A model generated the notes under the pieces. The model worked only from the letters and a program-made list of their open reading frames with translations. It did no database searches and was not told the DNA's origin. A stretch of 64,000 nucleotides of DNA from Alteraurantiacibacter aestuarii (GTDB lineage: Bacteria; Pseudomonadota; Alphaproteobacteria; Sphingomonadales; Sphingomonadaceae), in contig NZ_WTYY01000001.1 in NCBI RefSeq assembly GCF_009827405.1, positions 186,001 through 250,000 of the forward strand. The letters run 5' to 3'. Positions 5,830 through 50,645 of this stretch are shown here, piece after piece (positions within the stretch are counted from its first letter, which is position 1; every line of letters begins with the position of its first letter). The position numbers and the translations under genes were made by a program.

Positions 5830-5831
5830 GG

Positions 5832-10465: not shown

Positions 10466-10867
10466 ATGAAACGAATCCCTGTTGCTCTGGCCCTGCTGTG
10501 CCTGCCTCTTGCTGCATCGGCCCAGACAGTGCCCGCTCCGCCGCCAACTCCGGCGCCCGCTCAGGCGCCCGCTTCTCCAACGGTTAATCTGGAGCAGCGC
10601 ATGCTGCTGCGCTGCTCGGCCGCCTTTGCGCTGGTCGCCGACCGGCAGCAGCGGGCAGTGGACTGGGCGCTGGCCTATCCGCCGATGGGTGATCGCGGGC
10701 GGGAATTCTTCGTCATTTCCTCCGCCCGGCTGATGGATGAGGCGCAGCTGTCTGAAGATGATCTGGCGCAGATGCTGCGGACGGAGGCGCAGGCTCTGCT
10801 GGACCAACAGGTGCTGGATGAAATTATGCCCGTATGTCTGCGATTCCTCGATCAATCGGGATTGTGA
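10466..10867 (+). CDS. small periplasmic protein of unknown function
   Basis: A 133-residue protein that begins MKRIPVALALLCLPLAASAQ, a clear Sec signal peptide with an AxA-type cleavage site. A Pro/Ala-rich linker follows (roughly residues 22-40). The mature domain is helical with two cysteines (about 50 and 125) that could form a disulfide. Sphingomonads often carry such short alpha-helical periplasmic proteins of about 130 residues, but I do not recognise a named family. It sits 37 nt after the SnoaL-like gene and 33 nt before the GST gene, in the same direction. Confidence 0.7.
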   Translation: MKRIPVALALLCLPLAASAQTVPAPPPTPAPAQAPASPTVNLEQRMLLRCSAAFALVADRQQRAVDWALAYPPMGDRGREFFVISSARLMDEAQLSEDDLAQMLRTEAQALLDQQVLDEIMPVCLRFLDQSGL

Positions 10868-10900
10868 TGCGGGCCGCCATGCTGCAATAGCGTGACCTCG

Positions 10901-11572: not shown

Positions 11573-11602
11573 GGCCGCAATTGAACTGCCCAGGAGAGTG
11601 TT

Positions 11603-12040
11603 ATGACCGACAAGATTGACCTCACCGACGAGGAATGGCGCGCCAAGCTGAGCCCGGAACAATATGCAATATTGCGCCAGGGCGGCACCGAGCGCGCCTT
11701 CACCGGCAAATATGAAAAGAACAAGCAGGCGGGCATGTACAAATGTGCCGGATGCGGCCTGCCGCTGTTCGTCAGCGAGACGAAATATGACAGCGGATCG
11801 GGCTGGCCCAGCTTCACCGCACCTGCCGCCAGCGATGCGGTGGTGGCACACCGCGACATGTCGCACGGCATGGTCCGCACCGAAGTCACCTGCGCCCGCT
11901 GCCAGGGTCATCTGGGCCATGTTTTCCCCGATGGTCCGGGTGCGGACGGCCTGCGCTACTGCATCAATTCGGCATCGCTGGATTTCAAGCCGGAGGATGG
12001 GCCAAGGGATGGGCCAAGGGATGGGTCAGAGGAAAAGTGA
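11603..12040 (+). CDS. msrB: peptide-methionine (R)-S-oxide reductase MsrB
   Basis: A 145-residue MsrB that reduces methionine-R-sulfoxide in proteins. The four zinc cysteines are at 48 and 51 (CAGC) and 97 and 100 (CARC). The catalytic cysteine is Cys120 in RYCINSASL, with the family motifs SGSGWPSF at 64-71 and [11 protein letters not shown] at 102-112. There is no signal peptide, so it is cytoplasmic. The last residues form a short charged tail encoded by a 12-nt tandem repeat that is not part of the fold. It starts 7 nt after an AGGAG site. The S-specific enzyme MsrA is at 24835-25371. Confidence 0.96.
11996..12031 (+). repeat. 12-nt tandem repeat in the msrB 3' end
   Basis: GATGGGCCAAGG is present twice, followed by a third, diverged copy GATGGGTCAGAG. 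It encodes the [10 protein letters not shown] tail of MsrB. It looks like a slippage-prone, in-frame expansion. Confidence 0.8.
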
Positions 12041-12150
12041 CGGCAGGCAAGCCAGCTTGCGTTCACGCGACGTTACGAATGGCCTATGCAAGCCGTACAA
12101 GGGTTTGATCGCGGGCCATAGGCGTCCGGTTACAAGGTAGTTTGGGCCAG

Positions 12151-14340
12151 ATGGCAGGGAAGCGGGGCTCGCGCTCCAAATCATCGCGAAGCAGGAAGCA
12201 GGCTCCCCGGCTGACCGGGAAAGCGCGCGTGTGGGCATGGGTCAGGCGGCTGAGCATGTGGGGCGGCGCGCTGGCGCTGCTGGGCGCAATTGCGCTGGGC
12301 ACGTCGGTCTTCTTCGCCGCGCGCGGCATGCCGTCCTTTGCCTCGCTGATGAGCAGCCAGAACGGCCAGACCATCATCGTGCGCGCACGCGATGGGTCGG
12401 AAATCGTCGCCCTCGGCCCGTCCTACGGCGAATGGCTGCATGACGAGGAAATCCCCGAGATCATGAAGATCGCGATGGTCTCGGTCGAAGATCGCCGCTT
12501 CTATTCCCATTTCGGCATCGATCCGCTGGGCCTGGCCCGCGCCGTGTTCAACGCCATGCAGCAGGATCGGCGGGTCAGCGCCACTTCCACCATCACCCAA
12601 CAGCTGGCGCGCAACGTCTTCCTCAATTCCAACCGCACGTGGGACCGCAAGCTGCGCGAAGCGGTGCTGGCGATGGCGCTGGAATGGAAATTCTCGAAGG
12701 AGCAGATCCTCGAGCTGTATCTCAACAAGGTCTATTTCGGCGGCGGCGCCTATGGCGTAGATTCGGCCAGCCGCAAGTTCTTCAGCCATTCCGCGCGGGA
12801 GCTTTCCACCGCAGAGGCTGCGATCATCGCCGGGCTGGTGAAGGCGCCCAGCCGCTATTCCCCCACCGCTGATGTGCAGGCCGCAGTCGGCCGCGCCAAT
12901 GTGGTGCTGGACCAGATGCGCAAATATGGCGGACTGGATGAGCGGGACCTTGCTGCGGTTGACGTGTCCGCAGTCAATCTGCGCGAGGAAGCGGGCCAGA
13001 ACTCGATCCGCTATTTCACCGATTACGTATTGCCCCAGCTCGATGTGCTGCTGACCAATGACAGCTTTGAGCCGATTGAGGTGTGGACCACCATCGATGT
13101 GGGCATGCAGGCGGCGGCCACCAGTGCCATTCAGGCCAATGTGCCCGGCGGCGCGCAGGGTGCGCTGGTCAGCCTTGACCGCGACGGGGCGATTCTGGCG
13201 ATGGTTGGCGGCACCGATTACATCTCCAGCAATTACAACCGGGCCACCACCGCGGTGCGCCAGCCCGGATCGGCGTGGAAGCTGTTCGTCTATCTGACTG
13301 CGCTGGAAGCGGGCTATACTCCCAGTTCGGGCGTGCACGATGTGCCGGTAACGATTGACGGGTGGAGCCCGCGCAATTCCTCCGGGCGCTTCTCCGGCGA
13401 TATCGATGTGCGCACCGCCTTTGCCTATTCGGTCAACACGGTGGCGGCGCAGCTGGGCAATGAAGTGGGCTTTTCCAATGTTGCCAGCATGGCCCGGCGC
13501 TTTGGCATAACTACCCCGATTTCCACCTTCCCGGCGATGGTGCTGGGATCGTCCGAAGTGCGTGTGATTGACATGACCCGGGCGTTCGCCGCCGTTGCCG
13601 CGCGCGGCCAGTCGGTTGAGCCCTATGGCATTATCCGCGTGACCAATGCTGACGGGGAGGAGCTGTACAAGCACGAACAGACGCGCAGTTTCACGCTGGT
13701 GCCCGATTATGTGGCTGCCGGCATCACCGACCTGCTGCAGACCGCGGTCAACACCGGCACCGGCCGCGCCGCGCAGATCGGCCGTCCCGTGGCCGGCAAG
13801 ACCGGAACCACCAGTGACAACAAGGATGGCTGGTTCGTCGGCTTTTCCAGCGGCATCACCACCGGCGTGTGGATGGGCCGCGATGACAATGCCGCCGTTC
13901 CCGGCCTGCAAGGCGGCACCGCGCCCGCGCGCGCCTTTGCCTCTTACATGCGCTATGCCGTGCGCGACCGGCCGGAGGAGGAGTTCGACACCGACCTGCA
14001 ATTGCCCGAATGGCAGCTGGAGCCTGATGACGAGTTCTATTTCGGCGAACCGGGTGACTATTATTACATCGACGAGCAGGGCAATCTGATCGAACCGGGG
14101 CGTCCCAGCGGCGCGGGCGATCAGGAGATGTTTGACGTCGACGGGGAACGTCAGGGCACCCGGCAGGGCAGTTCTGTCGCTCCGGGCTCCTCGGTTCAGG
14201 ATATGGGTCTGCCCGATCCGCCACAGGCGGCGAGCGACGATTTCCTGGAGCGGGCCACCGGCGGCACCTTGCCCAGTGGCCAGAACCGGAGGCAGGGCCA
14301 GTCAGGCGTGACCGTGCAGAGGGGCGGCGATCCGCCCTGA
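12151..14340 (+). CDS. class A penicillin-binding protein (PBP1-type transglycosylase/transpeptidase)
   Basis: A 729-residue bifunctional peptidoglycan synthase. A basic cytoplasmic tail (residues 1-30) precedes one transmembrane helix (about 35-58). The GT51 domain has SVEDRRFYSHFGID, TSTITQQLARN, and RKLREAVLAMALEWKFS leading into LELYLNKVYFG. The transpeptidase domain has the Ser-x-x-Lys motif in GSAWKLF, the SxN motif in YSVNTVAAQ and KTGTT. A Gly/Gln-rich low-complexity tail of about 80 residues follows. A TTG nine bases upstream, better placed behind AAGG, is an alternative start. It is followed by a strong rho-independent terminator and is probably a single-gene transcript. Confidence 0.95.
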   Translation: MAGKRGSRSKSSRSRKQAPRLTGKARVWAWVRRLSMWGGALALLGAIALGTSVFFAARGMPSFASLMSSQNGQTIIVRARDGSEIVALGPSYGEWLHDEEIPEIMKIAMVSVEDRRFYSHFGIDPLGLARAVFNAMQQDRRVSATSTITQQLARNVFLNSNRTWDRKLREAVLAMALEWKFSKEQILELYLNKVYFGGGAYGVDSASRKFFSHSARELSTAEAAIIAGLVKAPSRYSPTADVQAAVGRANVVLDQMRKYGGLDERDLAAVDVSAVNLREEAGQNSIRYFTDYVLPQLDVLLTNDSFEPIEVWTTIDVGMQAAATSAIQANVPGGAQGALVSLDRDGAILAMVGGTDYISSNYNRATTAVRQPGSAWKLFVYLTALEAGYTPSSGVHDVPVTIDGWSPRNSSGRFSGDIDVRTAFAYSVNTVAAQLGNEVGFSNVASMARRFGITTPISTFPAMVLGSSEVRVIDMTRAFAAVAARGQSVEPYGIIRVTNADGEELYKHEQTRSFTLVPDYVAAGITDLLQTAVNTGTGRAAQIGRPVAGKTGTTSDNKDGWFVGFSSGITTGVWMGRDDNAAVPGLQGGTAPARAFASYMRYAVRDRPEEEFDTDLQLPEWQLEPDDEFYFGEPGDYYYIDEQGNLIEPGRPSGAGDQEMFDVDGERQGTRQGSSVAPGSSVQDMGLPDPPQAASDDFLERATGGTLPSGQNRRQGQSGVTVQRGGDPP

Positions 14341-33474: not shown

Positions 33475-33502
33475 GCTTTCGGGCACCTTGGGAGGGGAAA
33501 AG

Positions 33503-35362
33503 ATGGCAGTTCGGACAATATCATCGCGGGCCATGGGACGGCTTTTGCCCGTGGCATTGGCCATTGCTGTGGCAGGGTGCGGGCAAGGCACCAATGGCAC
33601 TGCGGGCGCAGATGCCGAAGCGCCCAGCCTGCTCAACACCGGCGAACGGCAAGTCTTCTTCGGCGATCTGCATCTGCACACGTCCTATTCGCTCGATGCT
33701 GCGGCAGCCAAGACCAACACCACGCCCGACGATGCCTATCTGTTCGCCAAGGGGGAGCAGGTGGATTACCTTGGCCGCATGCTCCAGCGGCATACTCCGC
33801 TCGATTTTCTGGCGGTGACCGATCATGCGGAGTATCTGGGCACGGTCAGGGCGGCGATGGCGGGCGAGATTCCGCTGCCGGGCGATCAGGACGAATGGGA
33901 CCGCCTGTTCGCCCATGATGGCGGCGCCACCATGTTCGAACTGTTCGGTATGGCCGTTGCTGGACTATACGGGGAAAGCCGCGAGGGGCTGGTCGATCCG
34001 GCGCGCAGTTATGAGGCCTGGCAGGATACCATCGCCGCGGCGCAGCGGCACAATAATCCCGGCACATTCACCGCCTTCGTGGCCTTCGAATATTCGCCCA
34101 CCTACCGGGCCAATGGCGCGCATCTGCACCGCAATGTGATTTTTCGCGGGCCGGATTATCCCGCCATGCCGTTCTCCGCGCTCGATTCGATGAACCACGA
34201 GGCCTTGTGGGCCTATGCCGAAACCAACCGGGCGCGCGGGATCGAGAGCCTGATGATCCCGCATAATGCCAATCTCAGCGATGGCCTCGCCTTCCCCTAT
34301 AACGACACGTACGGCCAGCCGATGAGCGTGGACTATGCCGCGCGCCGTGCGGCCAATGAACCGCTGGTGGAAATCACCCAGATCAAGGGCACCAGCGAGA
34401 CACGGCCCGAACTTTCTCCCGATGACGAATTCGCCGATTTCGAGATCATCAATTCCGATGGCGACCTGGCGGGGGCCTATGTCCGCACCGGCCTTGCGCG
34501 CGGCATGGAGCTGGCAGAGGCGCTGGGGGTGAACCCGTTCGAGCAGGGCTTTGTCGGCGCAACCGACTTCCATTCTGGCATTTCGAGCACCGAGGAGGAC
34601 AATTACCCCGGCGCGCTGGGCCTGTCCGACGACCATGCCAATGCCGCTGCCATCCTGGGCGATGTCTCGCCCGTGATCGGCAGCCCGCTGGCCAATCTTT
34701 CGGCATCGGGACTGACCGGCGTCTGGGCGGAGGAGAACACGCGCGAGAGCCTGTTCGCAGCCTTCCAGCGGCGCGAGACATTCGCCACGTCCGGCCCGCG
34801 CATGCGGGTGCGGCTGTTTGCGGGATGGAGCGACCCTTCATCGTTTGCCGATAGTGCGGACTGGGCCACGCGCGCCTATCAGTGGGGCGTGCCGATGGGC
34901 GGCAACCTTGCCGCGCCGCCAGCAGGCAGCACCGGGCCGACGCTGATAGTGCAGGCCGCCAGGGACCCGGAATCGGGCAATCTGGACCGCATCCAGATCG
35001 TCAAGGTCTGGCGTGAGGACGGGCGCAGTCTCGAGCGTATCTACAACGTCGCCTGGTCGGGTGACCGTCTGCAAGGTGAGGATGGCCGGCTTCCGGCCGT
35101 GGGCAACACCGTGGACGCCGGCACCGCGACCTTCACCAACACAATCGGCACGGCGGAGCTGATCGGCAGCTGGACCGATCCCGATTTCGATCCGGGCCAG
35201 CGGGCATTCTATTATGCCCGTGTGCTGGAAATCCCCACGCCGCGCTGGGCCACCTATCTTTCCGTCGCCAGCGGGATCGCGCTGGCGCCAGAGACGAAGC
35301 CATGGCTGCAGGAACGCGCCTGGACATCGCCGGTCTATTACACGCCGGCATCGGGGGTATGA
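33503..35362 (+). CDS. DUF3604 lipoprotein, copy 1
   Basis: A 619-residue exported lipoprotein. The leader (MGRLLPVALAIAVAGC) has a lipobox AVAGC, with the mature Cys followed by a short Gly-rich linker. VFFGDLHLHTSYSLDA is a PHP-like metal-binding HxH motif, and FLAVTDHAEYLG, MIPHNANLSDG and GFVGATDFHSGISS provide further His/Asp candidates for a polynuclear metal site. This is the DUF3604 family, predicted phosphoesterase-like but uncharacterised. The start ATG lies 5-6 nt after GGAGGGG. The second DUF3604 gene starts 1 nt after its stop. Confidence 0.85.
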   Translation: MAVRTISSRAMGRLLPVALAIAVAGCGQGTNGTAGADAEAPSLLNTGERQVFFGDLHLHTSYSLDAAAAKTNTTPDDAYLFAKGEQVDYLGRMLQRHTPLDFLAVTDHAEYLGTVRAAMAGEIPLPGDQDEWDRLFAHDGGATMFELFGMAVAGLYGESREGLVDPARSYEAWQDTIAAAQRHNNPGTFTAFVAFEYSPTYRANGAHLHRNVIFRGPDYPAMPFSALDSMNHEALWAYAETNRARGIESLMIPHNANLSDGLAFPYNDTYGQPMSVDYAARRAANEPLVEITQIKGTSETRPELSPDDEFADFEIINSDGDLAGAYVRTGLARGMELAEALGVNPFEQGFVGATDFHSGISSTEEDNYPGALGLSDDHANAAAILGDVSPVIGSPLANLSASGLTGVWAEENTRESLFAAFQRRETFATSGPRMRVRLFAGWSDPSSFADSADWATRAYQWGVPMGGNLAAPPAGSTGPTLIVQAARDPESGNLDRIQIVKVWREDGRSLERIYNVAWSGDRLQGEDGRLPAVGNTVDAGTATFTNTIGTAELIGSWTDPDFDPGQRAFYYARVLEIPTPRWATYLSVASGIALAPETKPWLQERAWTSPVYYTPASGV

Positions 35363-35363
35363 C

Positions 35364-37244
35364 ATGACAGCCCGTATTCTTCTCACATCCGCCGCCGCAC
35401 TGGCGCTGACTGCCTGCAACCAGGCGCCGTCCGATGTGTCTTCGGGCGTGCTCGATCCCGCGCTTGCGGAGGTGGCCGCGCCCGATATGCCGCAGGCTGA
35501 TCGCCAGCTTTTGTGGGGCGATACGCATGTCCACACGATCAATTCGGTCGATGCCTTTTCCAGCGGTCTGGCCAATGCCGATATCGACAGCGCCTATCGC
35601 TTTGCGCGCGGCATGCCGGTGATTTTCCCGCGCACCGGCCAGCGCGTGCAGATCGACCGTCCGCTGGATTTCGTGGTGATCGCCGATCACGCGGTCAGCC
35701 TGGGTATCTCCAGCCGGATCGCCCGCAATGATCCCTCGATCATGCAATATCCCATCGCCCGCAGACTGCGGGAACTGTTTGAAACCGAAGGCGGACGTGC
35801 GCTGACGACGGCGGGCATGGGCGGCAGCAATCTGACCGAGGAGGAGCTGGCGGCATTCAACCGCGACATGCGCTCTGACGAGGTGCTGGCGGGCAGCTGG
35901 CAGGGGCAGATCGATGCTGCCGAACGGCACAACCGTCCGGGCACTTTCACCGCGCTGATTGGCTGGGAATGGACCTTCGCGCCCAATTTGCGCAACATGC
36001 ACCGCGTGGTCTTCACCAATGTTGATGGCGATCAGGCCGGGCAGTTCCTGCCGCTGGCCAATTACCAGACCGACGGGCCGGAAGACCTCTACGCCTTCTT
36101 TGAGGAAACCCGAGCCCGCACCGGGGCCGATTTCGTGGCCATCCCGCATAATTCCAACCTGTCCGAAGGGCGCATGTTCGAACTCGTGGACAAGAACGGT
36201 GATGCCTTCGATGCCGCCTATGCGCAGACCCGCGCGGCGTGGGAGCCGGTGGTGGAGATCACCCAGTACAAAGGGTCATCGGAAACGCATCCGGCGCTTT
36301 CCTCCAATGACGAATTTGCCGATTTCGAGCTGCGCAACATGCTGCTCACCGGCGTTCCGACCGATCCGCTGGGCGGCTCCTACGTCCGCAGCGCCTTGCT
36401 GATGGGCATGGCCGAGGAACAGCGCATCGGCGCCAATCCGTTCCGCTATGGCATTATCGGGGCGAGTGACAGCCACACAGGATTCTCCTCGCAGCTGGAG
36501 AATAATTTCCTCGGCAAGCTGGGGGAGGATTATCTTCCGGCGGACCGGCTGGGGGATAACAAGGTGCCGATCATCTTCCCCGCCGCGCAAATGTCCGCCT
36601 CCGGCCTTGCTGGCGTGTGGGCCGATCACAATGACCGGCAATCGCTGTTCGATGCCTTCCGCAGGCGGGAGGTGTTTGGCACTTCGGGGCCGCGCATGTC
36701 GGTGCGGCTGTTTGCCGGCTATGATTTTGCCGCAGGGGATCAGGATCGACGGGATTTTGCATCGCATGGCTATCGCCTCGGCGTGCCGATGGGCGGGGTT
36801 CTGGCCCCCAGCAACGGCCGCGCACCGCGCTTGATGATACAGGCTGTGAAGGATCCCGAAGCGGGCAATCTGGACCGGGTGCAGGTGGTCAAGGGCTGGG
36901 TCGATGCACGTGGCCGGACGCATGAGAAGATCTTCAACGTCGCCTGGAGCGGCGGCCGGAGCATGCGCGCCGACGGATCTCTGCCGGCGGTGGGCAATAC
37001 GGTGGACCTGACGACGGCGCGCTATACCAACACTATTGGCGCGGCGGAGCTGGCAACGGTGTGGACCGATCCCGAATTCGATCCCTCCATGCGCACGTTC
37101 TATTATGTCCGCGTGCTGGAAATCCCCACCCCGCGCCATCACCTGTTCGATGCGCTGGCGCTGGGTATCGATCCGGCAACGATAGACATTGTGCCCACCA
37201 TACAGGAACGCGCCTGGTCATCGCCTGTGTGGTACACTCCGTGA
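35364..37244 (+). CDS. DUF3604 lipoprotein, copy 2
   Basis: A 626-residue paralogue of the preceding gene with its own lipobox (ALALTAC). The same blocks appear in order: LLWGDTHVHTINSVDAF, VVIADHAVSLGISSR, IPHNSNLSEGRMF, GIIGASDSHTGFSS, SASGLAGVWADHNDRQSLF, and the matching C-terminal block IGAAELATVWTDPEFDPS. Note HVHT and SDSHTG replacing HLHT and TDFHSG. It is separated from copy 1 by 1 nt and overlaps the parvulin start (GTGA), so the two form an expressed pair. Confidence 0.85.
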   Translation: MTARILLTSAAALALTACNQAPSDVSSGVLDPALAEVAAPDMPQADRQLLWGDTHVHTINSVDAFSSGLANADIDSAYRFARGMPVIFPRTGQRVQIDRPLDFVVIADHAVSLGISSRIARNDPSIMQYPIARRLRELFETEGGRALTTAGMGGSNLTEEELAAFNRDMRSDEVLAGSWQGQIDAAERHNRPGTFTALIGWEWTFAPNLRNMHRVVFTNVDGDQAGQFLPLANYQTDGPEDLYAFFEETRARTGADFVAIPHNSNLSEGRMFELVDKNGDAFDAAYAQTRAAWEPVVEITQYKGSSETHPALSSNDEFADFELRNMLLTGVPTDPLGGSYVRSALLMGMAEEQRIGANPFRYGIIGASDSHTGFSSQLENNFLGKLGEDYLPADRLGDNKVPIIFPAAQMSASGLAGVWADHNDRQSLFDAFRRREVFGTSGPRMSVRLFAGYDFAAGDQDRRDFASHGYRLGVPMGGVLAPSNGRAPRLMIQAVKDPEAGNLDRVQVVKGWVDARGRTHEKIFNVAWSGGRSMRADGSLPAVGNTVDLTTARYTNTIGAAELATVWTDPEFDPSMRTFYYVRVLEIPTPRHHLFDALALGIDPATIDIVPTIQERAWSSPVWYTP

Positions 37245-40770: not shown

Positions 40771-42072
40771 ATGAACCGCGTGCAATGGCACCGCCGCCTG
40801 TACATGGCCCTGGCAGCAGGGCTTGTCCTGCAGGCCCCGGCGCCGCTTTTGGCCCAGCAGGCCGATCCCGGGCAGGCAGATGCGCTCTATCAGTCGCTGG
40901 CCCCGCAAGAGGCTGATCGTGCCGGTGATCCGGACTTTGATTATGCGCTGGCCATCGCGGCTATCGACAGCGGGCATTATGGGGCGGCGATCATCGCGCT
41001 CCAGCGTGTGCTGGCGATGCAGCCGAACAATGCCGAAGCCCGTGCAGAGCTGGCCCGCGCCTATGCCATGGCAGGTGATATCGATACCGCTCGTGCGGAA
41101 TTCGCCACTGTGGTGGACGATCCCAGCCTGCCCGATCCCGTGCGCCAGCGCTTCACCGGCTTTGTCCGCCAGTTTGACCGGCAGATCGCCGGCGGCGGCA
41201 GCGATGTCTCGGGCTATTTCGATGCCCGCGCCGGACATGACAGCAATATCAACGCCGCCACCGACCTGACGCAGATCACCATCCCGTTGTTCGCCTTCCT
41301 CGGTGCGGGCAATCTGGGACCGGGCGCACGCGCGCAGGATGATGAGTTTTACGAGCTGACCGGCGGCGTCTCGGGCGTGACCGCGATCAGCCGGCAGGAC
41401 CGGTTGTTCGGATCATTGCTGGGCAATTACCGCGACAACTTCGACAGTTCTGCCTTCGATCAGGCCAGCCTGACCGGGACTGCCGGATACGCCCACAGCT
41501 TCGCCAACCGCGATGTGATCTCGCTGTCCGGACAGGTGCAGCGCTTCTGGCTCGACGATGATGGCTACCGCGACAGTTACGGCGCCATTGCCCAATATAC
41601 CGCGATGATGGCGCAGGGCCGCGCGATCACCATATCGGCCCAGTACAATCGCCTCGATTTCAATGGCCAGCCGCTGCTCGACGCGGATCGCTATGCGGTG
41701 GCGCTGGGCTATGTGACGAGCAATCTTTCCGCCACCGTTCAGGCCGGCAAGGAAGAGACGGTCCGTCAGGCGGGCGATGCCTTTTCGCACTGGTTCGCAG
41801 GCGCTTCCGTTGGCGGCGAATATCCGGTGAGTGAGCGCGTGGCCGTGCAGGGCGGGGTGGCCTTCGATATGCGCCGCTACGACACGGCCGATGCCCTGTT
41901 CCTGGTCGAAAGATCGGATGAACGGCTTGATGCGCAGCTTGGCGTCAAGCTGGCGCTGACCGGCAACCTCTATTTCCAGCCGCGCGCCACCTACACGCGC
42001 AACTGGAGCAACATCGCCCTTTATGACTACGACCGATACACGCTGACCGCGGGTATCCGGCTCGAGTTCTGA
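40771..42072 (+). CDS. Slam-like outer-membrane translocator (DUF560, surface lipoprotein assembly modifier)
   Basis: A 433-residue protein with a Sec signal peptide (ALAAGLVLQAPAPLLAQ). Two TPR-like repeats occupy about residues 55-120 (FDYALAIAAIDSGHYGAAII and RVLAMQPNNAEARAELARAY). A barrel domain of about 280 residues begins SGYFDARAGHDSNINAATD, the DxNIN block typical of DUF560/Slam, and ends in Phe (TLTAGIRLEF), as outer-membrane barrels do. Slam proteins move TbpB-like or soluble barrel cargo across the outer membrane (type XI secretion). Here the cargo candidate is the next gene, 31 nt downstream. The start is behind GGGGAG at 10 nt. Confidence 0.85.
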   Translation: MNRVQWHRRLYMALAAGLVLQAPAPLLAQQADPGQADALYQSLAPQEADRAGDPDFDYALAIAAIDSGHYGAAIIALQRVLAMQPNNAEARAELARAYAMAGDIDTARAEFATVVDDPSLPDPVRQRFTGFVRQFDRQIAGGGSDVSGYFDARAGHDSNINAATDLTQITIPLFAFLGAGNLGPGARAQDDEFYELTGGVSGVTAISRQDRLFGSLLGNYRDNFDSSAFDQASLTGTAGYAHSFANRDVISLSGQVQRFWLDDDGYRDSYGAIAQYTAMMAQGRAITISAQYNRLDFNGQPLLDADRYAVALGYVTSNLSATVQAGKEETVRQAGDAFSHWFAGASVGGEYPVSERVAVQGGVAFDMRRYDTADALFLVERSDERLDAQLGVKLALTGNLYFQPRATYTRNWSNIALYDYDRYTLTAGIRLEF

Positions 42073-42103
42073 TCTGATTTTCGCGAAACCGGGAGCTACC
42101 GAT

Positions 42104-45100
42104 ATGACCCGCATTGCCAGCCACACAATTTCCGCCAGCAAGTCCGCGAAACTGCTTCTCCTGTCCGCTTCAGTGCTGGCCATCGCCAGCGTTCCTGCCG
42201 AAGCGGCGGACGTGCTCTTCGCCAGCAATGGCACCACCACCGTCGAAGAGGGCCGCCCCTTCACCAATGGCGCGCAGGTGCTGCAGATCAGGCTTGAGAA
42301 CGGCGCCACGCTGTCCTTTACCCAAGGTGCCGAGTTCACCCTCAACTCCGATGGATCGGTAAACCTGGCCAAGGGCGGCGTGACGGTTGCCGGCGCGGGT
42401 AATTCCCAGACGACGATCCACATGCCCGAGGGCGTGAATGGCACGGTGGGCGGCACGGGAAATGCCGCCACATTCGAAGTCTCAGAAACCGGAAGTACCA
42501 GCGGCCATACGCTGACCGGCACCTCCACCATCATGCGCGGGCGGGAAGACCGGAGCTTTTCCGAGGGGCAGATGTGGGCCAGTTCCGGCCGCAACGGCAT
42601 TCGCCGCGTGATGGCGCGCGGGCCCCAGAATACTCCGCAGGCGCGTGAACCGCAGGTGGCGGATGTGGACACTGGCGGACCCCTGGCTGCGGCGCAGAAT
42701 GGCCAGCCGGTTTCGCTGGGTGATGCGCTGGCATCCGCCGGTGCTTCGGCAGATATCATCGGCGCGGCTCGGCGCGTGGAGGCCGCCAATGGCAATCCGC
42801 AGCTGGAAACCTATCCGGTGGGCGATCTGGCCTTGCTGGTGGCGCTGGCTGCCGATTTGCAGAATGCCTATGGCGGCGCGCCTTTCCAGGCGGCGCAGGC
42901 CGATATCATCCGCACTTATCTGGGCTTTCTGGCGAATGGCGGATCGGGTGCCAACTTCCTGACCGCCTATTCCGGCTTCCTGACTCAATATCTGGATCTG
43001 GTCCGCGTGGGCGGCCTGCCTTCCAGCTTCGATGCTGCTGCGCTTACCGATATCAACGCCTTCCTTGCCTATCAGGGCAATCTGGGTGCGCTGGCCAACC
43101 TTTCGGCACAGGATCAGGCGCTGGCGCAGGCCTATCTCGCCTTCCTGCAAGGGGGCGGCAACGGGGACCTGTTCGCGGCCCAGTTCACCGATCTGATCGA
43201 GGCCTATTTCGCCTTCGTTCGCGGCGGCGGAAACCCGCTGGAGTTTACCGGCGCATCACAGGAAGTCGTCGATGCCTATATCGCATTTCTTTCACAAAGC
43301 GGCCTGTCCGGGCAGCTTTCGGCAGACAACCAGACGCTGATACAGGCTTACCTGACCAGCGGCGGTTTCAACTTCGCCGCGCAATATGCCGCAGCGCTTG
43401 AAGCCTATTTCGCCTTCCTCCAGCAGGGCAACCTGCCCAGCCAGTATGCCGATCTGGATGCCGGCGTGGTGCAGGCCTATCTCGAAGCGCTGCAGGCATC
43501 GGGCCTGTTTGACCAGTTGCTGGGCCAGCAGGCGCAGTTCTATGCCAATTACCTCGCCTTCCTGCAGGGTGGCGGCAATCCGGACTTGTTTGCCGGTCTT
43601 CCCAATGCCGACCTGGTGCCCTTTGCCGATGCGCTGAATGACTATGCGGCGTTTCTGGCGGGCGGTGGCCTGCCCAGCAATTATGATGCAGCAACGCTGG
43701 AGCTGCTCGCCTCCTACCTCTCCGCCATTGATAATGCCGGACAGCTGACAAATCTGCTGGGTGGCAACAGCAGCCTGCTCGATGCCTATTTCACCTATCT
43801 GGCGGGCGGCGCGAATGCCGATCTGTTCGGCGGCTTGCCGATCTATGCCAGTTATGGCGCGGCGCTGCAGGCCTATTACACCTATCTTGCAGGCGGCGGA
43901 CTGCCGGCCAATTATTCCGCACTGACGCAGCAGCAGATAACCAACTATCTTGCGGCACTTTCGGCTGCGGGCGGATTTGCCACGCAGCTGGGCGATCTGA
44001 GCGACTTCTTCACCGCCTATTACGCCTTTGTCTCAACCGGCGGCACCCCGGCACAATTCAGTGGGCTGCCGCTCTATGCCAATTATGTTTCGGCGTTGAA
44101 TGCCTATTACGCCTTCCTTGCAGGCGGTGGTCTTCCGGGTGACTATACCGCGCTGACACAGCAGCAGATATCGAACTATCTGGCCGCGCTTGCTTCAGCA
44201 GGCGGTTTTGGCGCCTTTGCCAATCTCAACGGCTTCTTCACCTCTTACTATGCCTTCGTGCAGGGTGGCGGCGATCCGGCTGATTTCAGCGGACTGCCGG
44301 TCTATGCAGATTATCTGACGGCGATCAGCCAGTACTACGCCTATTTGGCGGGCGGCGGCGTGCCGAGCGCCTACACCGCGCTAACCCAGCAGCAGATCCA
44401 GGCCTATCTGCAGGCACTGGCCGATTCCGGGCTGCTGACCATCAACTTCTCCGGCGACATCCTCAGCTTCTACACCAACTATCTCGCTTACCTTGCAGGC
44501 GGCGGCGTGGCTGACAATTTCGGCGGATTGCCGGGAGCAGGTTCGGGTGGCGGTTCGGGGTCCACTGCAACCCAGCTCGCGGGCGCCAATGTCTGGCTGT
44601 ATGATGTCGGTCGCGCTTTCCGGGGTACGGCATCCACTGCCGATGTGACGGTAGATGGCCAGATCACGCGGACCGTTACCGGTTCCACGGTGAATGACTT
44701 TACCGGCGGAAACCGCACTCTGCGAGAATTTGGCCGGGTCGGCAATATCGTGGCCTGGACACGCTATGAACGCGGACTTGTGGGCGGCAATGCGAACTTC
44801 AACGAGCATTTGCTGGTAGGTGCTCCGGCGACCAATCTGCCCGCCAGCGGCAAGGTAAACTACCGCCTTGTGGGCGGCACCGCGCCTACCGATGCGCTGG
44901 CCACGGCAGGTTCCAGCGGTTCCTTCAGCGGATCGCTGGCTGTCGCCTTTGGTGCCACGCCGACGGTCGGCATATCATTCGATGTCTATAGCGGAACGCT
45001 GGGCTGGCATGCCCAGACCGCTGGCGGCGCGGCTGACCCCACCAATGGCGGTGCGCAGGTCGGTTCAGACGGCAGGTTCACCACCAGCCTGCAGACCACC

Positions 45101-47827
45101 GGACTGATCGGCGGTGCCTGCGCGCTGAGCGGCTGTACATCCGGTGCGCATGGCGGTCTGTTTGGCGATGGCGCAAGCAATGTCGGTATTGAGTATTTCA
45201 TCGCCGATTCCACCACCGGCGGCATCCAGAACGTCAACGGCGTGGCCATATTCGGCACCACCGGGACCGAGCTGGCGCAGATCGGCACTACTCCCACTCC
45301 GCCCGTGACAACCACCGTGGTTCAGAACCAGAGCTTTGCCTATGCCAACCCGCTGATCGGCGATGATGTCTATTCGCTGATCCCGGTGACTTATGACGCC
45401 AACGGATTTCCGGTTGGCTATCTGGCTTCGGCGGATGAGGGGCTGACCAGCGGAACCACAACCTTGCTCGACAGCGGCAAGGCGGGCGGAGTCATTTCCT
45501 GGGCGCGCTGGGCAAATGGCACACCGGGCGGCAAATATTACAACAGCGCCATTGAGCCTGTTGGTCCCAATGGCGGCTATCACGTGATCGCGGGCTCCGC
45601 GCTGACCAATATGCCGGCGAGCGGCGCGGTGGCGTATGATCTGATCGGATTCACCACTCCCACACGCCACAATGAAAGCACCAGCACAGGCTCTGTAACG
45701 GGCGGCGCGGCTGTGGTGTTCGGCGTAAATCCGGTGGCGGCGCTTGATCTGACTGTGGTCAGCGGATCGGACAGCTTCAACCTGTTCACCTCTGGCAAGC
45801 TGACCGATCCGACACAAAGCACGCTGGCGATCCGGGCCAATGGCTCATTCGAGACGCTGGGGGTCGGGGCAAGTCAGGGAGCGGTTTCAATCGCGTCTGC
45901 TTCGGCGTTCTGCACCTCTGGCTGCAACACATTTGTGGAGGGTTTTCTGGCAGGCGACGGGGCGAGCCACATGGGTCTCGCCTATTCGATCCGATCCAAT
46001 ACCGTGCCCAACCAGTTTATTGACGGCAGCGCAGCCTTTGCTGCGGGCGCAGCGATTAATCTGGGCGGCGGTGGCGGCGCGACGGGCACGGCGGACGGTG
46101 TCGTCCCGACCAGCGCCACCGGCAAGTACATCGCTTATCAGGGAGCTGGCGGTGACAATAACGGGCCGGTGAGCAGCGTCACGGTGACCAGCGGAAAGTT
46201 TGTTTCCGCTGCCGGCATTGGCAATGGCGCAGCGATCAGCATCACCACCAATGGCAATAGCGTTACTGAAACCGATGGCGATCAGGGCGTGATCGGCTGG
46301 CAGCGCAGTGAGAATGTGGGGGTCGACTATCGCTCCTCCAGTGGTCAGGGCCTGTCAGCCAGCGCTTTTGCCGGCCAGTCATGGCACACGGTCTGGGGCA
46401 CGCCTCTGGTCAATCTTCCCACCAGTGGCCTGATCAATTACGAACTCATCGGGTCAACCAAGGCCACGCAAACCAATGCGCAAGGTGGGCTCGGCTCATT
46501 CACCGGAGCGTTGGCGGTGGATTTCGGCACGCTCAAGGTTGGCCTTGATGCCAGTGTCGCCTTTGGCGGCAACACCTATGCCTTTGCAAGCGCAGGCGGG
46601 GTCACCGCGCCGAGCATGTCGCTCACCGATGATGGCTTTGGCGGGCGGCGATTTGGCTCGAACCTGACGACCACGGCCAACGGCACCACCAGTGTCACGC
46701 GCGGAACATATGTGCAGGGCTTCCTTGCCGGCGACGGCGCAAGCCACGCCGGTCTGACCTATTCGATCAAGACGAGTTCCAGCAACGCCATTCAGGGCGC
46801 GGCGACCTTCCGTGCGACAGGAAGCGGGACCGGTGGCGGAACTGGCGGTGGCAACACCACCTCCAACTTCACCGGCACGCGCGACGGGATCGTCTATTAC
46901 ACCTATACCAACGGCTCGCTGGCGAATGGCTTTGGCGGCAGTGCAACCTTTGCCAATGGTGCGGTGACAGGCCTCAGTTCGATCTTTGGCACGATTTCGT
47001 CCAATGGCGCACAAATCGTCGAAGCAGGCGATGTCGGGGATCTGGCCTGGGCCCGCTGGACGGGCGGCACGGTGGTGGCAACCGGTGTTTTGGGCGGATC
47101 GACGGTGATCGGCGCAAATGGTGGCTATCATGTGTTTGCCGGCAAGACTTCCACCAGCCTGCCTGCCAGCGGCACGGTGAATTACTCCCTGATCGCAACC
47201 ACCTCGGCAACTGACAATAAGGGCTCAACTCCGGGCACAATTTCGGGTGACCTGGCTATTGCTTTCGGTTCTACTGCCAAGGTCGGGTATAATATGCAGA
47301 TCGCCGTTGGTGGGCGTAGCTGGGGCGTGGAAACGGCCGGCGGAGTGGCCAATCCCTCAGCCAGTCAGGTGAACCTCGTAACCGGAACCGGAATTGCTAC
47401 ATTCTCCGGGCAATTTCTGAACACGGTAGGCCAAGTTACCGCTACCGGCGGGGCATGCGCGGGGAGTTGTTCCGTCAGTGTCGGCGGTTCGCTCTATGGT
47501 GCAAATGGCGCTTTTGCCGGGGTCGCTGTCAACGTGACCGATTCCAGCGTCACCAATGGTGTGATAACCGCCAGCGGCCTGGCGATCTTCAGCGCCGATG
47601 CTCCGGCCTCGGGCGGCCTTGCGCCATCCACGACCGGGACCACCCAGGCATCGCTTGCCTCCGTCACCGACTGGGATCGCTGGGAAGTCAATTCGGGCAG
47701 CATCAACGCCGGCAGCGACATGGCGATGTTGGCACCGGGAATGGAAGCGCTGGCGATGCGCGGCATCCAGTTCTCGGCCGAGCAGCTGGCCCAGCTTGAG
47801 GCCTATCAGGCAGCCGCCATGCGCTGA
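42104..47827 (+). CDS. giant repeat protein with FecR-like domain and four TbpB-like barrels (candidate type XI cargo)
   Basis: 1907 residues. Residues 1-35 form a Sec signal peptide ending PAEAA with no lipobox Cys. Residues 37-145 are FecR-like (ASNGTTTVEEGRPF, LENGATLSFTQGAEFTL). A Gln/Asp-rich linker leads to a repeat region (271-806) with 15 copies of an aromatic/Gly motif, such as YLAFLQGGGNPDLF. Four barrel-like domains follow, at about 822-1052, 1070-1317, 1328-1573 and 1585-1831. Each has a block like TNLPASGKVNYRLVGG and one like GDGASHMGLAYSI, the pattern of TbpB/Slam-cargo barrels. The C-terminal tail (1856-1907) ends AQLEAYQAAAMR. The Slam-like gene upstream, the leader and the barrels suggest a surface or released protein; its ligand is unknown. 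Confidence 0.85.
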   Translation: MTRIASHTISASKSAKLLLLSASVLAIASVPAEAADVLFASNGTTTVEEGRPFTNGAQVLQIRLENGATLSFTQGAEFTLNSDGSVNLAKGGVTVAGAGNSQTTIHMPEGVNGTVGGTGNAATFEVSETGSTSGHTLTGTSTIMRGREDRSFSEGQMWASSGRNGIRRVMARGPQNTPQAREPQVADVDTGGPLAAAQNGQPVSLGDALASAGASADIIGAARRVEAANGNPQLETYPVGDLALLVALAADLQNAYGGAPFQAAQADIIRTYLGFLANGGSGANFLTAYSGFLTQYLDLVRVGGLPSSFDAAALTDINAFLAYQGNLGALANLSAQDQALAQAYLAFLQGGGNGDLFAAQFTDLIEAYFAFVRGGGNPLEFTGASQEVVDAYIAFLSQSGLSGQLSADNQTLIQAYLTSGGFNFAAQYAAALEAYFAFLQQGNLPSQYADLDAGVVQAYLEALQASGLFDQLLGQQAQFYANYLAFLQGGGNPDLFAGLPNADLVPFADALNDYAAFLAGGGLPSNYDAATLELLASYLSAIDNAGQLTNLLGGNSSLLDAYFTYLAGGANADLFGGLPIYASYGAALQAYYTYLAGGGLPANYSALTQQQITNYLAALSAAGGFATQLGDLSDFFTAYYAFVSTGGTPAQFSGLPLYANYVSALNAYYAFLAGGGLPGDYTALTQQQISNYLAALASAGGFGAFANLNGFFTSYYAFVQGGGDPADFSGLPVYADYLTAISQYYAYLAGGGVPSAYTALTQQQIQAYLQALADSGLLTINFSGDILSFYTNYLAYLAGGGVADNFGGLPGAGSGGGSGSTATQLAGANVWLYDVGRAFRGTASTADVTVDGQITRTVTGSTVNDFTGGNRTLREFGRVGNIVAWTRYERGLVGGNANFNEHLLVGAPATNLPASGKVNYRLVGGTAPTDALATAGSSGSFSGSLAVAFGATPTVGISFDVYSGTLGWHAQTAGGAADPTNGGAQVGSDGRFTTSLQTTGLIGGACALSGCTSGAHGGLFGDGASNVGIEYFIADSTTGGIQNVNGVAIFGTTGTELAQIGTTPTPPVTTTVVQNQSFAYANPLIGDDVYSLIPVTYDANGFPVGYLASADEGLTSGTTTLLDSGKAGGVISWARWANGTPGGKYYNSAIEPVGPNGGYHVIAGSALTNMPASGAVAYDLIGFTTPTRHNESTSTGSVTGGAAVVFGVNPVAALDLTVVSGSDSFNLFTSGKLTDPTQSTLAIRANGSFETLGVGASQGAVSIASASAFCTSGCNTFVEGFLAGDGASHMGLAYSIRSNTVPNQFIDGSAAFAAGAAINLGGGGGATGTADGVVPTSATGKYIAYQGAGGDNNGPVSSVTVTSGKFVSAAGIGNGAAISITTNGNSVTETDGDQGVIGWQRSENVGVDYRSSSGQGLSASAFAGQSWHTVWGTPLVNLPTSGLINYELIGSTKATQTNAQGGLGSFTGALAVDFGTLKVGLDASVAFGGNTYAFASAGGVTAPSMSLTDDGFGGRRFGSNLTTTANGTTSVTRGTYVQGFLAGDGASHAGLTYSIKTSSSNAIQGAATFRATGSGTGGGTGGGNTTSNFTGTRDGIVYYTYTNGSLANGFGGSATFANGAVTGLSSIFGTISSNGAQIVEAGDVGDLAWARWTGGTVVATGVLGGSTVIGANGGYHVFAGKTSTSLPASGTVNYSLIATTSATDNKGSTPGTISGDLAIAFGSTAKVGYNMQIAVGGRSWGVETAGGVANPSASQVNLVTGTGIATFSGQFLNTVGQVTATGGACAGSCSVSVGGSLYGANGAFAGVAVNVTDSSVTNGVITASGLAIFSADAPASGGLAPSTTGTTQASLASVTDWDRWEVNSGSINAGSDMAMLAPGMEALAMRGIQFSAEQLAQLEAYQAAAMR
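42914..44521 (+). repeat. coding repeats: 15 aromatic-glycine motifs with a 77-residue (about 231-nt) period
   Basis: The motif Y-x-x-[FY]-[LV]-x-x-x-G-x-x-x-x-[FY] recurs at residues 272, 296, 344, 368, 435, 483, 514, 562, 591, 639, 668, 715, 744 and 793, plus a weaker copy at 392. In the C-terminal half it alternates at 29 and 47-48 residues, giving a 76-78-residue unit. Each unit also carries a YxALTQQQIxxYLxAL helix, and the last three units are the most alike. Confidence 0.85.
44567..47596 (+). repeat. four tandem TbpB-like barrel domains within the giant protein
   Basis: The blocks at residues 910, 1168, 1436 and 1684 ([TV][NS][LM]P[AT]SG...Y.L) and at 1021, 1284, 1543 and 1799 (GDGAS..G...I, relaxed in the fourth) mark four domains of 245-258 residues. 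Cys pairs occur in domain 1 (1006/1011), domain 2 (1270/1274) and domain 4 (1785/1789) but not in domain 3. Confidence 0.75.
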
Positions 47828-47969: not shown

Positions 47970-48533
47970 TCAGCGGAAGACGAGGTAGATGCTGGTCGCT
48001 TCGGTGCCGCGGTTTTCCAGCTCTATGGAAAAGCGCTCGGTAAAGATCGGCAGCCAGCTGCAATTTGCCCGCGGGGCCAGTGGCCGGGCGCAAATGGCCT
48101 CTTCGCGCGGGTTGCTGATCTCCAGCGCCACATTGCTGCCGCTGCTTGCCTGCGCGGCAATATCGGCGCGTTCACCGGCGTAGAATATCTGTTCGATCCG
48201 CACGCTCTCGCCCGCTTCCAGCCGTGCGCGGCGATAGGCCGGGCCCAGCGTGCGGCCACGGAATGGAGTGGCTGAAGATGGCTGGTACTGCGCCCGCCAT
48301 TCACTCAGCGGATCATCCGTGGCGCCATCCATCAGCGCAACATTCATGGTGTTGAGCCGGTCCACCAGCGGAGCGCGCTCACGCTTGTTCCGGGCGGATT
48401 CGGCAGCCACCAGCAGCGCTGCGGTATCGCTCAGCACATCGCCGGTCGGCTCGACTGCGGCCAGATCGCGATCGCCCGCGCCAACGCAGCCTGCCAGCGA
48501 CACAATCAACAGCAGCGTACAGGGCCGTTTCAT
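47970..48533 (-). CDS. lipoprotein of unknown function in a two-component operon
   Basis: A 187-residue protein with a lipoprotein leader, lipobox SLAGC (MKRPCTLLLIVSLAGC). The mature part has a helical N-terminal segment (about 30-75). A beta-rich C-terminal half follows (LGPAYRRARLEAGESVRIEQ, then NCSWLPIFTERFSIELENRG), with two Cys that could bridge. No family recognised. It starts in an ATGA overlap with the histidine-kinase stop, so it is co-translated with the kinase; a sensing or output accessory role is possible. It is not preceded by any other ribosome site than GGAG about 10 nt upstream. Confidence 0.8.
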   Translation of the reverse strand: MKRPCTLLLIVSLAGCVGAGDRDLAAVEPTGDVLSDTAALLVAAESARNKRERAPLVDRLNTMNVALMDGATDDPLSEWRAQYQPSSATPFRGRTLGPAYRRARLEAGESVRIEQIFYAGERADIAAQASSGSNVALEISNPREEAICARPLAPRANCSWLPIFTERFSIELENRGTEATSIYLVFR

Positions 48534-49933
48534 GCTTTCACTTCTCCACTGGTCCACATGGCGTGAGGCTTGATTACGAAATGAGCGCCTTTCTGGCTGG
48601 CGACAAGGCCAATTCCCATGCCGTGGCGCATGGCGATGGCACGCGCCAGCGCCAAGCCCAGGCCGTGGCTGTTCTTGCCCTGCACGTGATGGCCGGTGCG
48701 AAAACGTTCGAATACCAGCGGGCGCAGCGCTTCATCGATCCCCGGCCCGTCATCGCGCACTTCGATCACCGGCCCATCGGCGATGGACAGGGTAACCTGC
48801 CCGCCGCGCGGCACATATTTGAGCGCATTGTCGAGCAGGTTGGAGATCAGGCGGGTGAGCTGCATCGGCTCGCCCAGAATATGCACTTTGGGTTCAATGA
48901 AGCTGCGCAGCGAGATGCCGGCTTCTTCCGCACTGCCATCGTAAAGCTCCACCAGATTGCTGGCGAGGGCCGAGAGATCGACATCCTCCAGCCCGACAAG
49001 ATCGCCCACCCGGCTTTCGCTGGCGGCGATGTCGAGCAGGGAATCGAGCATGGTGACGACCGATTTGATGTCCTGTCGCCCCTGTTCGATCATGGCCGGG
49101 TCCACCCCTTCGGGCAGGCTGCGCATGGCATTGACCAGTCGGTTGTCCAGATGGGTCAGCGGGGTGCGAATTTCATGGGCGATGTGATCGGACATGTGCC
49201 GGTGCGTTCGCGCCAGTCCGGCACTGCGACCAATGGCCCGCGTGCTGAGATATGCCAGTTCACCGACCTCATCATCAAACTGGCTATCGGGCAGATCCAC
49301 ATCGCGGCCATGCTCAGCCGCGCGAAAAGCGCTGGAAATGGCGATGATGCGCTGGCGCAGCTTGGCAACGGCATTCCGGCCGATCAGCCATACGGCCAGC
49401 ACGATGACCGCTGCCGTGCCCAGGAACACCGCCACCAGCCGCAGCAGCGCAGTGCTGTCACGCTCATAGGTGCGGGCCACCAGCAGATCGAGATCAGGGG
49501 AAAGCCGGGTAGCCCGGGCAAACACCTTTGTCCCGTCCACCAATGTCAGAAAACCCTGTTCGGACAGCCCCGCGCCCAGCGTCGGCCACTGCTTGATATT
49601 GCCCCCCAATATTGTCCCGTCAGGACGAACCAGCATATAGCGCGCCTGCCGCCCCTCCAGGCTTACCAGCGTGGATCGATCCTCCAGCCGCGCCAGCAGC
49701 TCCTCCTCGCCACTGCTGGCATAGATATCAACCAGGCCGGCAATGTCGGTATCTACAGTGGCGGAAAGCGATCGCTGTGTAGCGTTCCAGCTTTCCCACA
49801 TGGTCACGCCGAACAGTACCAACAGCGACACCAGCGCCAGCCCGATGGCACCGCGCACCAGCCGCGTGAAAATCGACCTGCCGGATTCGGGCCTGTCGAT
49901 GGTCGTTTCGAGTTTGGGCAGGGGTTCTTGCAT
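48530..49933 (-). CDS. sensor histidine kinase
   Basis: A 467-residue inner-membrane kinase. TM1 is at about 27-46 and TM2 at about 161-185, enclosing a periplasmic domain of about 115 residues. A HAMP-like linker leads to the phospho-acceptor His253 in SDHIAHEIRTPLTHL, and the ATPase domain carries the N box NLLDNALKYVP, DDGPGID and HGLGLALARAIAMRHG. It belongs to the EnvZ/QseC-like class. It should phosphorylate the OmpR-type regulator encoded 19 nt upstream and is followed by the lipoprotein gene. Confidence 0.94.
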   Translation of the reverse strand: MQEPLPKLETTIDRPESGRSIFTRLVRGAIGLALVSLLVLFGVTMWESWNATQRSLSATVDTDIAGLVDIYASSGEEELLARLEDRSTLVSLEGRQARYMLVRPDGTILGGNIKQWPTLGAGLSEQGFLTLVDGTKVFARATRLSPDLDLLVARTYERDSTALLRLVAVFLGTAAVIVLAVWLIGRNAVAKLRQRIIAISSAFRAAEHGRDVDLPDSQFDDEVGELAYLSTRAIGRSAGLARTHRHMSDHIAHEIRTPLTHLDNRLVNAMRSLPEGVDPAMIEQGRQDIKSVVTMLDSLLDIAASESRVGDLVGLEDVDLSALASNLVELYDGSAEEAGISLRSFIEPKVHILGEPMQLTRLISNLLDNALKYVPRGGQVTLSIADGPVIEVRDDGPGIDEALRPLVFERFRTGHHVQGKNSHGLGLALARAIAMRHGMGIGLVASQKGAHFVIKPHAMWTSGEVKA

Positions 49934-49952
49934 TGTTACTGTGCCAGCCAGA

Positions 49953-50645
49953 CTATTCGCCGCGCGTCAGCCGGTAACCGGTGCCCCAGATCGTTTCCAG
50001 CGCGGGTGCATCAAAGCCAGCCTCCAGCTTGCGCCGCAGCCGACCGATATTGACGTCCACCACATTGGTCTGGGGATCGAAATTCATCTTCCACACATCG
50101 CGCAGCAACATGTCCCGCGTCACCGTCTCCCCCGCGTTCTCCATGAAATAGCGGAACAGTTCGAATTCCTTGGGGCTGAGCGGGATGTGCACATTACGCC
50201 TGAAAGCGGTGCGCGCCTTCACATGGCATTCGAACTGGCCATAGATGATGATGGCAGAATGGGTGCGTCCCTCGGCGCGGCGAACCAGCGCCTTGAGCCG
50301 GGCCATCAGCTCATCAGGTTCATAGGGTTTGGCCAGGTAATCATCCACTCCGGCATCCAGGCCCTCAACCCGGTTGGCGGCGCGTCCCAGTGCGGACAGC
50401 ATCAGCACCGGCGCATCCACGCCGCTGGTTCGCAGGCGGGCGACAATTTCCAGCCCGTCCATATCGGGCAGCATGCGGTCCAGGATGATGGCATCGAATG
50501 GCTCCAGCGCGGCGCGGCGCAAGCCATCGGCCCCGCGCATTTCCCACACGACCTGGCTGCCCTGCCGCGCCAGCAGTGCCGTAAGGTCAGCCGCGGCATC
50601 GGCGTTGTCCTCAATATAGAGCAGCTTCAATCCCTGATCCTGCAT
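49953..50645 (-). CDS. OmpR/PhoB-family response regulator
   Basis: A 230-residue regulator. The receiver domain has acidic Glu12/Asp13 (YIEDN), phospho-acceptor Asp56 (IILDRMLPDMDG) and Lys106 (LAKPYEPDEL). A winged-helix DNA-binding domain follows, with LSPKEFELFRYFMENAGETV, VVDVNIGRLRRKLE and ETIWGTGYRL. It is first in the regulator-kinase-lipoprotein operon. A long inverted repeat lies 41 nt before its start. Confidence 0.95.
   Translation of the reverse strand: MQDQGLKLLYIEDNADAAADLTALLARQGSQVVWEMRGADGLRRAALEPFDAIILDRMLPDMDGLEIVARLRTSGVDAPVLMLSALGRAANRVEGLDAGVDDYLAKPYEPDELMARLKALVRRAEGRTHSAIIIYGQFECHVKARTAFRRNVHIPLSPKEFELFRYFMENAGETVTRDMLLRDVWKMNFDPQTNVVDVNIGRLRRKLEAGFDAPALETIWGTGYRLTRGE

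Follow-up and report, generated by a model that had tools for sequence, protein, structure and literature searches.

Does a sphingomonad gene pair, made up of a Slam-like outer-membrane barrel and a giant protein without a lipid anchor, encode a type XI secretion system (T11SS) and its cargo? We addressed this question for a pair in a 64,000-nucleotide stretch of Alteraurantiacibacter aestuarii DNA (the window), which is part of a 2.24-Mb, 69.7%-complete assembly. A 433-aa Slam-like ORF on the + strand begins with the ATG at 40771 and has its stop at 42072, and a 1907-aa ORF (42104-47827) starts 31 bases past it on the same strand. The gene pair, the conservation of the pairing and the Slam family were all computed here. 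We conclude that the two genes very probably form a T11SS/Slam pair belonging to a Slam clade of its own, which would export a large lipid-free binding protein. The features of the pair are as follows.

40771..42072 (+): Slam/T11SS outer-membrane protein, 433 aa (SlipAM match; profile comparison with canonical Slams)
40942..41115 (+): TPR segment, covering Slam residues 58-115 (TPR_16/TPR_19 above cut-off)
41233..42039 (+): SlipAM barrel match (Pfam), containing the DSNIN motif at 41239-41253
42104..47827 (+): putative giant cargo protein, 1907 aa (ORF, 31 bases downstream of the Slam)
42104..42205 (+): probable Sec signal peptide, residues 1-34, with the cleavage site behind AEA and without a lipobox (read by eye from the sequence)
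42209..42619 (+): FecR-like head, about residues 36-172 (hhalign, fold)
42665..44497 (+): helical-repeat stalk, residues 188-798, with YxxFLxGG motifs (self-similarity, AlphaFold2)
44534..45268 (+): handle-barrel unit 1, residues 811-1055 (predicted fold)
45311..46054 (+): probable handle-barrel unit 2, residues 1070-1317 (homologous in sequence to units 1 and 4)
46076..46825 (+): probable handle-barrel unit 3, residues 1325-1574 (sequence homology)
46859..47605 (+): handle-barrel unit 4, residues 1586-1834 (AlphaFold2 pLDDT 92.6, fold Z 12.7)
47606..47824 (+): C-terminal tail past the last barrel, 73 aa (sequence; similar in locus L036 by eye)

The 433-residue protein has the TPR plus DxNIN barrel layout of DUF560/Slam that the first-pass annotation had read from the letters. 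TPR_16 and TPR_19 matched above their cut-offs, and SlipAM matched at E 1.2e-5 with 25.5 bits against a Pfam cut-off of 22; it was the best barrel family of the protein, with no other family better. TPR_Slam matched weakly, under its cut-off (E 0.0056). The D-x-N-I-N motif, DSNIN in the window Slam, is present in the canonical Slam consensus too, and its residues D157, N159 and N161 are invariant in 11/11 rows. At E 0.01, SlipAM was matched by nine and TPR_Slam by six of 11 family Slams (the window Slam plus ten relatives). In the genome search at E 0.001, SlipAM had no match in four of the 11 adjacent Slams (G100, G178, G214 and G220), and its match in a fifth, G199, was under the cut-off. 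No other SlipAM gene turned up in the assembly, which is 69.7% complete.

The SlipAM margin in the window protein is thin, at 3.5 bits above the curated cut-off, which favours a reading that places the protein in a different TPR-plus-barrel family, such as the polysaccharide export barrels of the EpsL or BBP2 types, and takes its likeness to Slam as superficial. An EpsL match over its last 91 residues (E 2.2e-5) points the same way, as do matches to DUF2860 in 6/11 and to BBP2_2 in 4/11 family Slams at E 0.01. However, the EpsL match reached 23.6 bits, far below that family's cut-off of 275, and DUF2860 stayed under its cut-off in the window whereas SlipAM passed its own. When the 11 family Slams were compared by hhalign with canonical Slams of the order (26 of the 30 were taken), the two sets aligned over 393 columns at 100% (E 2.5e-40). 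We give this reading very little credence and treat the protein as a Slam.

By eye, the N-terminus of the cargo is hydrophobic and ends in AEA. Its full sequence holds no lipobox and no Cys ahead of residue 1006, so the cargo cannot be an N-terminal lipoprotein, and the Sec leader without a lipobox Cys that the first-pass annotation had proposed is probable. The same annotation had proposed a FecR-like N-terminal domain. Pfam FecR (PF04773) did not match the head of the window cargo, where the sole Pfam row was a flagellar-hook domain under the cut-off (E 0.016). Among nine proteins scanned, Pfam FecR was above cut-off in seven, namely the cargo of genome G076 and six proteins from beta/gammaproteobacteria, and was absent from L040 and the window head. 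Upon comparison of the Sphingomonadales heads with ten FecR domains of relatives, hhalign gave 83.6% (E 8.2e-6). The head in an AlphaFold2 model (mean pLDDT 80.0, pTM 0.36) superposed on 4m0n, the putative anti-sigma factor BDI_1681, with VIA Z 15.2 (rmsd 2.4 A, 119 residues), and for PupR (6ovk) Z was 14.7; both are presumably FecR-family proteins. A FecR-like fold of the head is thus supported by the profile comparison and the model, without a Pfam match.

The head is followed by the long helical repeat stalk that had been foreseen. Its self-similarity at lag 77 exceeds the best of 100 shuffles, and the AlphaFold2 model shows it as successive helices. Residues 191-815 of the cargo are without Lys, His, Cys, Met and Trp. 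Foldseek, given an N-terminal model that includes more than the stalk, returned no trusted solved relative. The designed repeat protein 8cwy was rejected at an rmsd of 30.5 (prob 0.63), and whole-length rows had prob of at most 0.28. Phage_int_SAM_1 was likewise rejected, since it passed (23.0 vs 22.3 bits) as a whole-protein sum with no lone stretch passing, as were the Pfam matches to ANAPC2 and DPC2, for which no single stretch passes alone.

C-terminal to the stalk lie four lobes of about 245-250 residues each, with units 2-4 showing 32-34% identity to unit 1. We rejected assembly duplication as the origin of the four barrels, as about two thirds of the positions differ and the same build occurs in other genomes. 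Unit 4 with its handle, modelled by AlphaFold2 from 140 rows, reached pLDDT 92.6 and pTM 0.88. In Foldseek, TbpB took ranks 1 and 2 (prob 1.00), a match that is loose over the whole length (TM 0.36, rmsd 12.3). VIA-align gave Z 12.7 for the TbpB C-lobe, 12.4 for NHBA, 12.4 for fHbp and 11.1 for LbpB. The barrel part by itself is generic, since Ail, a presumably unrelated 8-strand outer-membrane barrel, also scored Z 10.9 against unit 4; the TbpB-lobe matches span handle plus barrel. For unit 1, taken from the second AlphaFold2 model, holo HphA ranked first in Foldseek (prob 1.00), and Z was 13.6 for the TbpB C-lobe, 11.9 for the H. haemolyticus hemophore (hemophilin) and 11.7 for HpuA. The models thus support a handle plus eight-strand barrel of the TbpB/fHbp/hemophilin fold for lobes 1 and 4, and homology suggests that units 2 and 3 are of the same handle-barrel kind. 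Close Cys pairs (1006/1011, 1270/1274 and 1785/1789; window 45119-47470) occur in lobes 1, 2 and 4, with none in lobe 3; they precede a conserved G-x-L-x-G stretch and are possibly disulfides.

The four TbpB-like barrels that the first-pass annotation had counted were therefore recovered as four units, two of them by predicted structure, but a likeness to the TbpB_B_D family failed to appear at the level of Pfam. Pfam TbpB_B_D (PF01298) did not match the window cargo even when E values up to 1 were allowed, the 11 cargo genes contained none of the listed PF01298 places, and a profile built from the order's own TbpB_B_D domains matched 0/11 family cargos. A search of PDB chain sequences with the lobe profile returned no TbpB or hemophilin (best E 0.13, judged chance). 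By hhalign, 29 lobes gave 93.3% against 27 TbpB_B_D domains from this order, whose alignment omitted 3 truncated loci of 30. A set of 31 lobes with beta/gamma ones included (19/29 lobes of the first set plus 12/15 beta/gamma lobes) gave 94.3% against the same 27 domains, and five control comparisons between unrelated sets gave 0.1-0.4%. Lobe alignment A6 omitted locus L109 and lobes failing the set limits.

We surveyed the pairing in two ways. In a cargo-led search, for which the profile consisted of the four lobes of one protein, barrels were found in at least 11/296 genomes of the order, a lower bound because the profile was built from one protein's lobes. A Slam-led search supplied 80 loci, the best 80 of 98 relatives, among them Altererythrobacter sp. 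KTW20L and Sphingomonas soli NBRC 100801. Fifty-seven of these loci are alphaproteobacterial, 53 with Sphingomonadales names and 4 (L084, L108, L127 and L128) named Alphaproteobacteria only; the 23 others are mostly beta/gamma, with L147 named Proteobacteria only. The two surveys are not independent, because 6 contigs match between them in length.

A homolog of the window Slam was adjacent, on the same strand, in 11/11 barrel-carrying genomes of the cargo-led search, and a lobe-bearing ORF lay downstream of the Slam in 51/57 alphaproteobacterial loci among the best 80 of 98. The contigs of the remaining six (L084, L119, L122, L123, L127 and L128) keep 2,488, 444, 820, 145, 262 and 0 bases past the Slam, respectively, and the head domain is still visible in 3 of them. 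L109 and L129 have short lobe ORFs, which begin 968 and 483 bases past the Slam, respectively. The genes are thus paired elsewhere wherever the contigs permit. Within this sample of the best 80 of 98, the 51 loci have lobe-bearing ORFs of 465 (L109, short) to 2228 aa with a median of 1611, which carry 1, 2, 3 or 4 lobes in 4, 10, 26 and 11 proteins, respectively, and have at least three stalk motifs in 37/51 cases. Some family cargos carry P-T runs; the window protein does not.

Among the 23 other loci of the best 80 of 98, a FecR protein stands directly past the Slam in 20/20 with downstream DNA, and in the other 3 the contig ends with the Slam. The lobe profile matched 9 of these 20 FecR proteins and found no barrel in 11/20, several of which are on truncated contigs, so the barrel is not established as universal in the wider clade. 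In gammaproteobacterial L149, L150, L152, L153, L154 and L155, FecR-headed proteins in which the profile detected no lobe lie past the Slam; they may carry a further divergent barrel. In L136, from an Agitococcus sp. MAG, two FecR-plus-lobe genes (5365-7836 and 9329-12562) flank one Slam.

To place the FecR-cargo Slams, we built a 72-row tree with a midpoint root, which kept about one third of the 57 loci and dropped rows <380 aa. Its 30 canonical Slam loci (L046-L075) were hand-picked from SlipAM places and are not a random sample. One branch (95/94) splits the 30 canonical Slams from the 42 other rows, and these include every sampled FecR-cargo Slam; two of the canonical rows, L050 and L053, sit on very long branches and are uncertain. 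The best reading of the sequences is that the FecR-cargo Slams form a clade distinct from the canonical Slams. A TbpB_B_D-type ORF was present within 3 kb of the canonical Slam in 28/30 loci, a count that is partly circular because the profile was built from genomes overlapping the canonical loci; the Pfam hits are not circular. A lipobox-like motif was found in 23/27 TbpB_B_D-type ORFs within 1 kb of canonical Slams and in 4/74 head-bearing family cargos (loci from the best 80 of 98), with patterns that differ slightly between the two sets in the stretch searched and in one extra position. Around canonical Sphingomonadales Slams, TbpB_B_D-type proteins are seen upstream or downstream, many with a lipobox and long P-T linkers.

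These counts bear on whether the cargo is one of the 'Sphingomonas surface proteins', a T11SS cargo class already in the literature. According to the available text of PMC12282271, that class likewise comes from sphingomonads, lies near a Slam, carries two to three handle-barrel pairs behind a P-T repeat N-terminus and comprises 18 lipoproteins and 12 soluble proteins. The order is the same, the family here also has several handle-barrel pairs, and some of its members have P-T linkers. However, it is the canonical Slam loci of the order that encode Pfam-positive TbpB_B_D proteins, many with P-T runs and most with the lipobox-like motif, and these proteins fit the description in the available text of PMC12282271 better. 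The window protein lacks P-T repeats and has a FecR-like head and helical repeats instead, the lipobox-like motif is rare in its family, and the Slams of the family stand apart from the canonical ones. We consider membership of the published class unlikely and keep to a separate Slam clade with its own cargo.

Downstream of the pair, a regulator, a kinase and a small probable lipoprotein stand in an operon-like row (47970-50645, -).

47970..48533 (-): probable lipoprotein of small size, with a lipobox-like LAGC seen by eye (no Pfam family above cut-off)
48530..49933 (-): histidine kinase (HATPase_c above cut-off, HisKA under)
49953..50645 (-): OmpR-type response regulator (Response_reg and Trans_reg_C)

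All-against-all clustering of neighbour ORFs apparently picked up many shadow frames, the DNA being GC-rich, and was abandoned in favour of targeted BLAST. Among the alphaproteobacterial loci of the best 80 of 98, the response regulator had matches in 37/57 (31 at ≥55% identity, 6 weak), the histidine kinase in 37/57 (31 at ≥36% identity, 6 weak) and the small probable lipoprotein in 17/57. At the canonical Slam loci the regulator was found in 1/30 (at 32%), the kinase in 0/30 and the lipoprotein in 0/30, and all three gave 0/23 by BLAST at the other, mostly beta/gamma loci of the best 80 of 98. Their absence is often a matter of reach because flanks extend at most 8 kb; some full-flank loci lack these neighbours as well. 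The sulfatase, ORF 50804 (TonB-like by eye) and ORF 38119 each recur in 1/57 loci (best 80 of 98). No TonB-dependent receptor was noticed by eye among the ORFs between 34 and 54 kb of the window. At 33488-37244 (+), upstream of a peptidyl-prolyl isomerase-like gene, lie two proteins in tandem that by eye resemble paralogues, the first with a weak CehA/McbA metallohydrolase likeness under the cut-off. Regulation of the pair by the neighbouring two-component system is a guess.

FecR domains are best known from the periplasmic parts of anti-sigma regulators. This context, the match of the head to 4m0n and PupR, the two-component system that is often nearby and the missing lipid anchor could all indicate that the cargo stays in the cell as a sensor or scaffold of FecR type in the periplasm, with the Slam-like protein serving as an assembly or sensing partner and not as an exporter. 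Against this, the lobes share the fold of known T11SS cargo (units 1 and 4 modelled), the outer-membrane protein is a Slam by profile comparison, and the numbers of lobes and repeats vary widely (1-4 lobes), as in surface proteins. Compared with FecR and PupR, which have the head-domain fold in common with the cargo, the domain here is N-terminal on a secreted-type protein and no anti-sigma part was seen. We regard a cell-bound sensor as quite unlikely and favour export of the cargo by its adjacent Slam.

By analogy with characterised systems, the cargo would enter the periplasm by Sec and be kept unfolded there. The C-terminal handle-barrel units would be recognised by the cognate Slam as the export signal, and the Slam would then pass the chain across the outer membrane. 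In the available text of PMC9090332, Slam1 moves unfolded TbpB across the bilayer with the chaperone Skp, and hemophilin-type cargo shows Slam-dependent surface display or release in what is available of PMC8560813 and PMC8406197. The product would be a large lipid-free protein, held at the surface or released, in which a long helical stalk of low charge joins a FecR-like head to several TbpB-like lobes, and these lobes may bind ligands. We infer Sec entry, unfolded transit, the barrel as export signal and the surface location from such parallels; an adhesive or ligand-binding role is a guess.

The head sits where the canonical class has its lipid anchor. Many canonical Sphingomonadales cargos run from lipid through P-T linker to lobes, whereas the family here runs from FecR head through P-T linker or helical stalk to lobes. 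This position suggests that the head may replace the lipid anchor, remaining periplasmic at the Slam or the cell wall while the lobes are exported through the Slam, a tentative idea that we think unlikely. If the head folds fast and stays periplasmic, the cargo would span the outer membrane, which would amount to lipid-free surface anchoring, and if the head does act as an anchor, ligand binding could possibly be reported to the neighbouring two-component system.

To our knowledge, a cargo of 1,900 residues would be much longer than any characterised T11SS cargo, a point that counts against export of the protein by its Slam. With the T11SS (Slam, DUF560, SlipAM) of TbpB, fHbp, LbpB and HpuA, the pair has in common the same TPR-plus-barrel outer-membrane protein family, an adjacent cargo, handle-barrel lobes of the same fold and the D-x-N-I-N motif. 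It differs from these canonical systems in a non-lipidated cargo of 1907 residues with a FecR-fold head, a long helical stalk and up to four lobes, and in a Slam from a separate clade. Hemophilin, HphA and HrpC likewise have a Sec leader without a lipid anchor and a handle plus 8-strand barrel; they serve as hemophores, and their loci include a TonB-dependent heme receptor, according to the available parts of PMC8560813 and PMC8406197. The cargo here differs from them in its several lobes, stalk and FecR head.

The first-pass annotation had suggested that the cargo architecture would be new. This holds in part: a multi-barrel cargo as such has been described before in Sphingomonas, where the available text of PMC12282271 gives two to three barrels. 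The FecR head, the helical stalk, the non-lipidated giant form and the separate Slam clade together were not found in print. Our literature search, with supplements and most subscription papers outside its range, returned no description of a FecR-headed T11SS cargo, and the word FecR has 0 occurrences in the available text of PMC12282271 and PMC8406197.

For the majority of T11SS outer-membrane proteins, no cognate cargo is known or predicted, as stated in the accessible part of PMC12282271. With the family described here, a Slam clade that spans alpha- to beta-/gammaproteobacteria gains a concrete partner in FecR-headed proteins, many of which carry TbpB-type lobes too divergent for Pfam. With this pair, the size range of T11SS cargo would reach about 1,900 residues and its forms would come to include long multi-lobe proteins with a stalk.
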